DNA from: Anaerolineales bacterium | GTDB taxonomy: Bacteria; Chloroflexota; Anaerolineae; Anaerolineales; UBA6663 | Direction of reading: 5' to 3' | Assembly (NCBI GenBank): GCA_016789245.1 | Contig: JAEURM010000081.1 | Location: 1-7,953 of the forward strand | DNA length: 7,953 nt | Part shown: positions 3,720-7,953 of the stretch, piece by piece | How the letters are laid out: every line of letters begins with the position of its first letter | How positions within the stretch are numbered: the stretch's first letter is position 1 | Position numbers and translations under genes: made by a program | The notes under the pieces: generated by a model | What the model was told of the DNA's origin: nothing | The model's database searches: none | The model's input: the letters and a program-made list of their open reading frames with translations, nothing else

Positions 3720-3799
3720 CTTTTAGTCCAAAAGTCGAATGGTCGAGTAGTTGCGGCATCGTGACTACTCGACTAACAGACTACCTGACTACCCGGCTA
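3720..3799. repeat. Spacer repeat, GACTAC/GTCGAGTAGT words with hairpin
   Basis: The spacer before the FAD-subunit gene is built from variants of agtc/gactac. Bases 3742-3751 (gtcgagtagt) are the exact reverse complement of 3764-3773, a 10-bp stem with a 12-base loop. A small ctttt/aaaag hairpin (3720-3724 with 3730-3734) precedes it directly after the lipoprotein stop, and gactac words continue at about 3778-3793. There is no T-run after the main stem, so termination is not indicated. The start codon at 3805 has no Shine-Dalgarno. Confidence 0.8.
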
Positions 3800-3804
3800 G
3801 CACC

Positions 3805-4677
3805 ATGAAACCCTCTCCCTTCACCTATCACGCTCCTGAGAGTTTGGAAGCCGCACTGGCCCTTAAGGCTGAGTACGGCGATGACGCGAAATTTTTGGCG
3901 GGCGGGCAAAGCCTGATTCCGGCCATGAACTTCCGCGCCACCCAACCGGAGCGGCTGATTGATGTGAATGGTCTGCGGGAATTGGATTTTGTGAAAACCG
4001 AGGGCGCTGAGCTTCGGCTTGGCGCCCTCACCCGCGTGCGGCGTTTAGAGCGTGAAGCCGCTGTCAAACAATGGTCACCGCTTCTCGCTGAAACCGTGCC
4101 ACACATCGCACATCCGCAAATCCGCAACCGTGGCACCGTGGGCGGCTCACTGGCCCACGCAGACCCGGCGGCGGAACTGCCGGTGATTCTCTTAGCCCTC
4201 AACGGCCGCGTGCGCGCACAATCCGCTTCTGGCTCACGTTGGCTCAGCGCGGATGATTTTTTCATCACGCTGTTCACCACCGCTTTGCAAACCGATGAAA
4301 TGCTGGCCGAAGTAGCTTTGCCCCAACTGCCCGCCCGCACTGGCACCGCATTTTTAGAAGTGGCACGGCGGCACGGTGATTACGCCATGATGGGTGTGGC
4401 CGCCGTGGTAACGCTGGATGAGGGCGGCACTTGCACAGCCGCGCGGCTGGTATATCTCAACGCGGGTGATAAGCCCATGCACGCCGCCCAAGCCAGCGCG
4501 GCCATCATCGGCCACGCACTCACAGAAGCCTCCATTGCCGAGGCCGCCGCCGTGGCCGCCACCCAAGAAATTGACCCAATGGGCAGTTTACACGCTTCAC
4601 CGGAATTTCAACGCCACTTGGCTTCTGTGCTCACCAAGCGGGCAGTGAAATTAGCGGCCCAAAGAGCCAAAGCGTAA
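3805..4677 (+). CDS. Molybdenum hydroxylase FAD-binding (medium) subunit, CoxM/xanthine dehydrogenase type
   Basis: FAD subunit of a three-gene xanthine dehydrogenase/CO dehydrogenase-type enzyme; it takes electrons from the [2Fe-2S] subunit and passes them to an external acceptor in the cytoplasm. From ATG 3805 it is 290 aa, normal for CoxM/CutM-type subunits. The opening PFTYHAPESLEAAL is typical. The two FAD pyrophosphate-binding motifs are AGGQSLIPAMNFR (residues 32-44) and TVGGSLAHADPAAELP (111-126). The central ARRHGDYAMMGVAAVV segment and the Ala-rich CO_deh_flav_C domain follow. A TTG 18 codons upstream (3751) would add only translated repeat sequence, so I reject it. The [2Fe-2S] subunit gene follows after 90 bases, confirming the pairing. 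Small-molecule substrate is decided by the large subunit, which is not in the window, so xanthine, nicotinate-type or other N-heterocycles all remain open. Confidence 0.94.
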   Translation: MKPSPFTYHAPESLEAALALKAEYGDDAKFLAGGQSLIPAMNFRATQPERLIDVNGLRELDFVKTEGAELRLGALTRVRRLEREAAVKQWSPLLAETVPHIAHPQIRNRGTVGGSLAHADPAAELPVILLALNGRVRAQSASGSRWLSADDFFITLFTTALQTDEMLAEVALPQLPARTGTAFLEVARRHGDYAMMGVAAVVTLDEGGTCTAARLVYLNAGDKPMHAAQASAAIIGHALTEASIAEAAAVAATQEIDPMGSLHASPEFQRHLASVLTKRAVKLAAQRAKA

Positions 4678-4678
4678 A

Positions 4679-4762
4679 GCGTGAGACGTGAAACGTAAGT
4701 GGCCTCGGCCCTAACCTGTTTCACGTTTCACTCATCACGCTTCACGTGTCACGTTTCACGTT
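4679..4762. repeat. Spacer inverted repeat, ACGTGAAACGT / ACGTTTCACGT words
   Basis: Bases 4686-4696 (acgtgaaacgt) are the exact reverse complement of 4751-4761. An extra right-hand copy, acgtttcac at 4723-4731, pairs with 4688-4696, and a tcacgcttcacgtg variant lies between, so alternative hairpins are possible. A small ggcc-tc-ggcc palindrome (4701-4710) sits in the centre. The last copy ends 6 bases before ATG 4768. No Shine-Dalgarno is visible. The frame upstream of 4768 is open through this repeat but reads as repeat-derived peptide. Confidence 0.82.
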
Positions 4763-4767
4763 GTTTT

Positions 4768-5244
4768 ATGACTGAACTTCATTCTCTCAAACTTACCGTC
4801 AACGGCCAAACGCACGAGCAACAAGTGGAAGCCCGCTTGCTATTGAGCGATTTTTTGCGGCATGAGTTAGGGCTGAGCGGCACGCATGTAGGCTGTGAGC
4901 ACGGCGTGTGTGGCGCTTGCACCATTTTGTTTGATGGTGAGCCGGTGCGCTCGTGCATCATGTTTGCCGTGCAAGCCAATGGCCATGAATTGCACACCGT
5001 AGAAAGCCTTGGCACGCCCAACAAACTACACCCATTGCAAGAAGCATTTTGGGAGAAGCACGGCTTACAGTGCGGCTACTGCACACCCGGCATTTTAATG
5101 ACACTTAAAGCGTTTTTGCGGGAGAACACGTCTCCCACAGAAGCCGAAGTGCGCGAAGCCCTCTCCGGCAATTTGTGCCGTTGCACTGGCTACCAAAACA
5201 TTGTGGATGCGGCGCTTTTGGCCGCTGAAAAATTGAAAGCCTAA
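4768..5244 (+). CDS. Molybdenum hydroxylase [2Fe-2S] (small) subunit, CoxS type
   Basis: Electron-transfer subunit carrying two [2Fe-2S] clusters between the molybdenum site and the FAD subunit encoded just upstream; cytoplasmic. From ATG 4768 it is 158 aa, the family norm. The N-terminal plant-type ferredoxin domain holds Cys43, Cys48, Cys51 and Cys63 (GCEHGVCGACT...RSC). The C-terminal helical domain holds the second cluster with Cys102 and Cys105 (QCGYCTPG) and Cys137 and Cys139 (NLCRCTGYQNI). All eight ligands are present, so the protein should be functional. An in-frame upstream extension to 4699 would translate the repeat and is not credible. No Shine-Dalgarno; the start lies 6 bases after the hairpin arm. 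Normally the molybdopterin large-subunit gene stands next to this one; here an amidase gene follows instead. Confidence 0.96.
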   Translation: MTELHSLKLTVNGQTHEQQVEARLLLSDFLRHELGLSGTHVGCEHGVCGACTILFDGEPVRSCIMFAVQANGHELHTVESLGTPNKLHPLQEAFWEKHGLQCGYCTPGILMTLKAFLRENTSPTEAEVREALSGNLCRCTGYQNIVDAALLAAEKLKA

Positions 5245-6619: not shown

Positions 6620-7066
6620 ATGGGCAAATTGCAACATGCGGCAAGTTATCGCGATTTAATGGTTTACCAAAAAGCGCGTGAGCTTTCCCGTGAGATATTT
6701 CGGTTGACACTTAAGTTCCCTAAAGATGAGCTTTACTCGCTTACCAGCCAAATTCGCCGCTCAGCCCGTTCAATTGGCGCTAACCTAGCTGAGTCTTGGG
6801 CTAAACGTCGGTACGAGAATCACTTTATCAGCAAACTCACCGATGCGGATATGGAGCAATACGAAACTCAACACTGGCTAGATACCGCCGTGGATTGTGA
6901 ATACTGTGATCTCAATACTGCCAAACAGTTGCAACATAGATGTGAAGAAATCGGACGGCTATTAGGCGGTATGATGGCTAAAGCCGATTTGTTTTGTGGT
7001 GACCATCCGAGAACCATGCGTGAATCATCTGCGGAGTATTTTGCAGATTCCGCATCCACCGAGTGA
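6620..7066 (+). CDS. Four-helix-bundle protein, 23S rRNA intervening-sequence (S23) family
   Basis: Small all-helical protein of the family first seen encoded in 23S rRNA intervening sequences and now known as stand-alone genes; its biochemical function is not established, though distant relatives (Avd) serve diversity-generating retroelements by binding nucleic acid and protein. Family marks are YRDLMVYQKARELSREIFRLT (residues 10-30), FPKDELYSLTSQIRRSARSIGANLAE (33-58) and the RRYENHFISKL and YETQHWLDTAV segments of helix 3. The bundle ends near residue 126; the last ~22 residues (GDHPRTMRESSAEYFADSASTE) are outside the usual domain and come partly from a small inverted repeat (7028-7054). 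Codons look more AT-rich than those of neighbouring genes. With its own Shine-Dalgarno and inverted aacagt repeats on both sides, it looks like an inserted cassette rather than a member of the pathway. No rRNA sequence surrounds it, and no reverse transcriptase or variable repeat is seen. Confidence 0.9.
   Translation: MGKLQHAASYRDLMVYQKARELSREIFRLTLKFPKDELYSLTSQIRRSARSIGANLAESWAKRRYENHFISKLTDADMEQYETQHWLDTAVDCEYCDLNTAKQLQHRCEEIGRLLGGMMAKADLFCGDHPRTMRESSAEYFADSASTE
7028..7054. repeat. Small inverted repeat at the 3' end of the four-helix gene
   Basis: tgcgga (7030-7035) pairs with tccgca (7049-7054), and alternatively tctgc (7028-7032) with gcaga (7043-7047). The element encodes the SAEYFADSA tail of the four-helix protein, beyond its conserved domain, and lies 10 bases before the stop. 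It could be a degraded spacer repeat read into the gene. Confidence 0.45.
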
Positions 7067-7106
7067 CTGTTCATCACTGTTCACTGCTTACTGACCACTG
7101 TTCACT
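7066..7106. repeat. ACTGTTCACT repeat cluster before fdrA
   Basis: Three copies of actgttca(ct) at 7066-7073, 7076-7086 and 7097-7106, with a related gcttactg between them. They are the inverted counterpart of the aacagt words at 6568-6600. The last copy ends 3 bases before ATG 7110, and there is no Shine-Dalgarno for fdrA. Confidence 0.8.
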
Positions 7107-7109
7107 ACC

Positions 7110-7820
7110 ATGACGTTTATTCAAAGTGAAATCCGAAAAGGCACTTACTACGATTCCGTAGTGCTGATGCAACTGCAACGCGCCCTGCTGGGTTTGCCCG
7201 GCGTGGCGGATGCGGGCGTGGTGATGGCCACTCCCGCCAACCGTGAACTGCTGGAGCAAAGCGGCCTGCTGGTGGAAAGTGTGCAAGCCGCTAACCCGGA
7301 TGATTTGCTGATTGTGGTGAAAGCCGAAAATGACGCGGCGGCCAAAGACGCGCTGGGCCAAGTGGATGCTTTGCTGGCTAAACGCCGCTCAGCCACCGCT
7401 ACAGAATTCCGCCCGCGCAGCGTGGAGGCAGCGGCCAAACTTTTGCCAGAAGCCCAGTGGGCGCTGATTAGCGTGCCCGGCCGTTTCGCGGCCGGCGTAG
7501 CGCGTGAAGTCTTGAACTTGGGCAAACACGTTTTCCTTTACAGTGATAACGTGGCGCTGGCTGATGAAATTGAGTTGAAGCGGCTGGCGCAAACCCAAGG
7601 CTTATTAGTGATGGGGCCAGATTGCGGCACGGCCATCATCAATGGTGTGGGCTTAGGATTTGCTAACCACGTACGGCGCGGAAGCATTGGTTTGGTGGGG
7701 GCCAGTGGCACCGGCTTACAAACGGCCACCAGCCGTATTCACCAACTCGGCGCGGGCGTGTCGCACGCCATTGGCACCGGCGGGCGAGATTTGAAAGCGG
7801 ACGTGGGCGCGCTCACCGCG
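7110..7820 (+). CDS. fdrA: FdrA, N-terminal part (acyl-CoA-synthetase-like; carbamoyltransferase system), broken at a chimeric junction
   Basis: Recognisable FdrA for about 236 residues of a protein normally near 500-550 aa. Landmarks in order: IRKGTYYDSVVLMQLQ (8-23), VVMATPANRELL, ALISVPGRFAAGVAREVL, VFLYSDNVALADEIELKRLA, LLVMGPDCGTAI with MGPDCG at 168-173, the CoA/nucleotide-fold loop GASGTG (197-202), and AIGTGGRDL with GTGGRDL at 222-228. The fold resembles succinyl-CoA synthetase alpha. In E. coli FdrA acts with the YlbE and YlbF products in oxamate carbamoyl transfer during anaerobic allantoin use; partners would be expected further on. After VGALTA (residue 237) family similarity stops abruptly: E. 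coli continues with a conserved helix and a SKPP segment, absent here. The + frame stays open to 7953 but only because it is antisense to another coding sequence. Start ATG 7110 begins right at the family N-terminus; no Shine-Dalgarno. Confidence 0.9.
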
Positions 7821-7953
7821 CACCACGAAGGCGCTGTCGGCCCCGCCCGCCTTCAGCAGGATGTGGCAGTGGTGGTGGGCATGAGCGACCAGGGGTGCGT
7901 CCATGTCGAGCAAGGCGACACGGCCGAAGCGGCCCTGGTAGATCTTGATGGCG
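7815..7953 (-). CDS. AraC-type regulator N-terminal fragment (foreign-looking, both ends missing)
   Basis: Read on the - strand from the window edge, this stretch gives AIKIYQGRFGRVALLDMDAP followed by LVAHAHHHCHILLKAGGADS and AFVVRG. A His-rich beta strand followed by a hydrophobic strand and a small acidic turn is the usual look of the cupin-like N-terminal domain of AraC-family regulators, and I recall very similar openings in proteobacterial members. Its codons end almost always in G or C (AAG, ATC, TAC, CAG, GGC, CTG, GAC), unlike the mixed codons (CAA, GAA, ATT, AAA) of the rest of the window. The start would lie beyond 7953, and the protein would run into the middle of fdrA, so it is truncated at the junction near 7806-7820. 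The family call is moderate; that the - strand is the true coding strand is stronger. Confidence 0.55.

Follow-up and report, generated by a model that had tools for sequence, protein, structure and literature searches.

Acyl-CoA synthetase FdrA (NCBIfam model NF004760; fdrA of E. coli) is the described protein closest to the last reading frame of the window, the whole stretch of 7953 nt of DNA analysed here. Residues 4-238 of this frame match the model in its N-terminal part but, compared with FdrA, the second half is missing and the last 42 codons are foreign. In the accessible portion of one source, fdrA is listed among three candidate genes for oxamate carbamoyltransferase (PMC3364942); as far as that portion goes, published work on the function of FdrA has no bearing on the join described below.

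The other relatives are AraC-family regulators of the Burkholderiales type, like WP_162068330.1 of Caballeronia sp. NK8 or the full-length proteins P0001 and P0002. They share with the minus strand of the window end an N-terminal stretch of 49 residues; unlike them, the window contains only these 49 residues and lacks both a start codon and the HTH domain. The whole arrangement resembles the chimeric metagenome contigs described, in the accessible part of a review, as possible products of assembly graphs linked by shared k-mers (PMC7299287): likewise, two genomes are joined at a short shared stretch, here near the contig end. The features are collected in Table 1.

Table 1. Features at the right-hand end of the window, with the evidence for each.
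Feature	Position	Strand	Evidence
fdrA, genuine part (residues 1-238 of about 557)	7110..7823	+	NCBIfam NF004760; nine full-length relatives
Stretch compatible with both genes, 21 nt, holding the join	7805..7825	.	Conservation per residue in 119 FdrA and 120 AraC proteins
N-terminal fragment of an AraC-family regulator, 49 codons, Burkholderiales-like	7806..7952	-	335 homologues
fdrA frame, spurious C-terminal part (42 codons)	7826..7953	+	Lies antisense to the AraC fragment; no stop codon before the contig end

The fdrA gene and its neighbours

The contig measures 7953 nt, has reading frames open at both ends and looks like the whole record. Its body looks like Chloroflexota. Ahead of fdrA, the Pfam scan identified two ABC permeases, an ATPase and an NMT1-like binding protein, followed by two molybdenum hydroxylase subunits (FAD-binding and 2Fe-2S), an amidase and a 23S rRNA-IVP-like protein. 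Of the 80 fdrA loci compared (the best 80 of at least 578 confirmed from genome contigs), 28 have the FAD subunit, the 2Fe-2S subunit, the amidase and fdrA in this order, a count to be read with the fact that many of the loci without it end early. In one of the loci (L017), the binding protein is also found ahead of these genes.

The 28 loci also bear on the idea that the whole contig is proteobacterial and acquired fdrA with its neighbours from Chloroflexota. Twenty-five of them are titled Chloroflexota, Anaerolineales or similar, which speaks against it, and even then the join would lie within two unrelated genes. The remaining three (L052, L068 and L073) are labelled Acidobacteriota or Thermoanaerobaculia, and fdrA itself occurs outside Chloroflexota, for example in Microvirga (L077) at 53% identity; both facts would suit such an acquisition, which we nevertheless regard as extremely improbable. 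The named FdrA matches are mostly from Anaerolineales and other Chloroflexota (among the matches listed), and no fdrA relatives were found in a scan of viral contigs.

Several other details of this neighbourhood were recorded. The molybdenum hydroxylase subunits occupy positions 3751-5244, and the large molybdopterin subunit was not seen among the scanned reading frames. Between the amidase and fdrA lies a gene for a 23S rRNA-intervening-sequence-type protein (PF05635; 6620-7066, plus strand), with a GC3 of 0.44, the lowest among the nine window genes. Relatives of this protein are present in four of the best 80 loci (of at least 578), each time downstream of fdrA, at a distance of 2.2-3.1 kb from its aligned part, and in none of these 80 between amidase and fdrA. 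In 28 of the 30 loci with an upstream amidase, the aligned parts of amidase and fdrA are less than 200 nt apart, the exceptions being L005 (687) and L046 (882). Directly 5' of fdrA, positions 7064-7110 contain a short series of near-repeats (CTGTTCACT / CTTACTG type).

Up to the join, the gene is a genuine fdrA like that of Anaerolineales and other Chloroflexota. Homology to the FdrA N-terminal, CoA-binding region is present: NF004760 covers residues 4-238 with an E value of 8.4e-77. The score of 258.9 bits lies below the whole-protein cut-off of 433, which is to be expected when half of the gene is missing. The C-terminal Ligase_CoA domain (PF00549), present in a 96% identical relative (P0122), was not found by Pfam in the window frame, the join and the contig end having removed it. 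The protein search lists this terminal frame of 281 aa as a separate entry (P0121, marked as window-encoded). Some FdrA proteins of 704-721 aa (P0137, P0151, P0200 and P0207) contain a further domain of the CoxG/SRPBCC type (PF06240 and related domains in the precomputed Pfam annotation).

The nine closest full-length FdrA relatives (556-560 aa, among the best 120 of 7999) are 82-96% identical to the window through His238, encoded at 7821-7823. All nine read V-G-A-(L/I)-T-A-H and then QAL(D/G)(V/L)L (among the matches listed). The sequence-only reading had placed the end of the FdrA similarity near the window end, which holds, although it stops after GALTAH (7823) and not after GALT (7817). 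Among the 119 FdrA proteins compared (the best 120 of 7999, without the window's own), H238 is common to 101; it is followed by Q in 108 and by H, as in the window, in six. The motif TAHQAL occurs in 86 of these 119 and TAHHEG in none. The normal FdrA continuation is also found in 78 of the best 80 fdrA loci (of at least 578), the remaining two running out of DNA. Chloroflexota homologues continuing with the window's own plus-strand residues had been named beforehand as evidence against a break; these loci and the nine closest proteins show the opposite.

The AraC-family fragment on the minus strand

A search of 5.8 billion proteins with the 49-residue minus-strand translation retrieved 341 candidates, of which 335 are homologous at E <= 1e-3. 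The best match is 96% identical over 49 of 49 residues, a value reached by both P0001 and P0002, and the fragment is homologous to the N-terminal region of this AraC subfamily. The full-length P0001 carries the AraC HTH domain (PF12833) at its C-terminus. A 46-residue piece, short and without the HTH domain, had no Pfam or NCBIfam match at E <= 1. The proposal that fdrA breaks off into an antisense, AraC-like N-terminal fragment is borne out, both homologies ending near the join.

Taxon names are attached to five of the 120 AraC relatives listed (best 120 of 335): Burkholderiaceae, Cupriavidus, Hydrogenophaga, Pseudoduganella and Rhodoferax, all members of Burkholderiales. Among plasmids, tblastn with the 46-residue query returned 15 records. 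The best one, from Caballeronia, is 82% identical over 44 residues, and the corresponding protein of the Caballeronia sp. NK8 plasmid is annotated as an AraC family regulator; alphaproteobacteria follow at 64-71%. At the nucleotide level, a blastn search of plasmids with the tail found eight records, all at only 60-80% identity, so none of the searched plasmids is closely related to the donor. A locus from the genome contigs (L083) is identical to the fragment at 124 of 147 nt. Judged from its homologues, the foreign piece is from a proteobacterial AraC regulator, closest to those of Burkholderiales.

The first five genomes searched, those of four Chloroflexota loci (L001, L002, L005 and L017) and of L077, contain no match to the fragment. 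As the last of these is a proteobacterium, this type of AraC regulator is unevenly distributed even within its phylum. Among 398 genomes from the phylum of L077, matches are present in 21 (a single one at 90%, another three at 57-61% and the other 17 at 30-38% identity), against one weak match in 396 genomes from the class of L001.

The composition of the tail agrees with a foreign origin. In the minus-strand frame, 44 of the 49 codons end in G or C (GC3 0.90), compared to a GC3 of 0.44-0.72 for the nine window genes. The different codon style pointed out in the sequence-only reading is real: among 2037 in-frame slices of 49 codons from these nine genes, the maximum is 41.

The same data dispose of a genuine, divergent FdrA C-terminus, in which the plus-strand reading would be real. 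The frame does run without a stop over 42 codons up to the contig end, and 18 of 80 tblastn alignments (best 80 of at least 578 loci) reach weakly past residue 238, to 256-280. These extensions are taken as chance. In the plus frame after the join, agreement with FdrA is only scattered, with V252, V254 and V264 each found in 71-89% of the 119 proteins from the best 120 of 7999. The AraC homologues on the opposite strand, conserved at up to 96% identity, the normal continuation in all nine near relatives (among the matches listed) and the conservation per residue refute this possibility, to which we give practically no weight.

The stretch shared at the join

Agreement with the AraC relatives (best 120 of 335) is high up to A49, at 7806-7808, and collapses at 7805-7803. 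Codon 50 of the minus frame is Pro in 117 of these 120 and His in the window; from codon 50 to codon 64, the window residue is common to at most 2% of them. Codons 65 and 66, already inside fdrA, agree with the same set at 99% and 93%, which is taken as chance. Comparing these limits with those of FdrA (conservation table of 119 FdrA, i.e., the best 120 of 7999 without the window's own, and the best 120 of 335 AraC proteins), 21 nt fit both genes. On the plus strand, they encode the last base of V, GALTAH and the first two bases of Q; on the minus strand, two bases of codon 43, VRGERA and the first base of P. The sequence-only reading had suggested short shared sequence in a GC-rich stretch at the junction, gtgggcgcgctcaccgcg; the overlap of the two homologies extends further to the right.

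The sharing of 21 nt is deduced from protein conservation and not from the DNA of the parents, whose exact nucleotide identity over this stretch we infer, as well as the assembler step that would have used it. The best fdrA loci agree with the window at 17 of the 21 bases, the mean being 12.5 in 79 loci; on the AraC side, the agreement is 14 (L083) and 11 (L081). In 200,000 simulated random joins between such genes, a shared identity of at least 10 nt was obtained at a frequency of 1.5e-5 and one of at least 12 nt never. The longest exact common substrings between 79 fdrA and five AraC loci are mostly 10-12 nt long (338 of 395 pairs), with a maximum of 18, encountered once, so sharing of 21 nt is rare for any given pair. 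Taken together, the shared stretch at the join is unusually long. Two sources of differing taxonomy abut there, at a short stretch whose sharing is read from proteins, as is characteristic of a chimera.

A real rearrangement, in which Burkholderiales-like donor DNA recombined into a Chloroflexota fdrA at a short shared stretch and halved it, is the alternative; such a stretch could also suit illegitimate recombination. In addition, one of 396 genomes from the class of L001 contains a remote AraC match (48%, E 6e-4). Positive support is lacking. The AraC piece, without start and DNA-binding domain, is cut by the contig edge, and Pfam finds neither transposase nor integrase in the eight other window proteins scanned. 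Furthermore, the join is absent from relatives: the junction peptide TAHHE is present in one of the 240 proteins compared (the best-listed FdrA and AraC proteins), the window's own; the best 80 fdrA loci (of at least 578) give no AraC match better than E 0.62; and a 33-nt junction probe has no exact match in viral contigs. Right up to the join, fdrA shares 91-96% identity with its seven closest relatives (among the matches listed). A rearrangement is therefore unlikely, and the specific case of inter-phylum illegitimate recombination, with a Burkholderiales-type AraC fragment entering fdrA at about 21 nt of identity, is slightly less likely still.

Origin of the contig end

The contig end is very probably a chimera of two organisms, produced by an erroneous extension at the shared 21-mer, either through an assembler join or a library chimera. 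An assembly chimera with a Proteobacteria-like genome, already favoured as the simplest reading from the letters alone, is also the best supported one now, the AraC piece being closest to Burkholderiales. The last roughly 130-150 bases most likely stem from an unrelated, Burkholderiales-like regulator gene misjoined in assembly, and the tail is most likely an ordinary artefact that is neither a new gene nor an insertion and not novel.

The true Chloroflexota contig would have continued inside fdrA. Instead, about 128 new bases would have been added from the antisense strand of the regulator gene of a bacterium presumably living in the same sample, the stretch apparently common to both genes acting as the bridge. 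The smallest k-mer used in common short-read assemblers is 21, and Illumina reads are about 150 long. The bridge is as long as this smallest k, and the foreign part, including the shared stretch, spans 149 nt (7805-7953) before running off the contig end, which is about one read; a k-mer-bridged extension at a ragged contig end is hence the likeliest route, probably by one or very few reads extending through the assembly graph. Alternatively, a template switch at the same stretch during library preparation or amplification would leave an identical mark.

The fused reading frame should not be given a function. The case matters only as a caution: misjoined contig ends seed false genes and false inter-phylum transfers. 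Such ends can be flagged without reads by comparing where homology stops on either strand, how long the shared stretch is and how long the tail is (here about one read).
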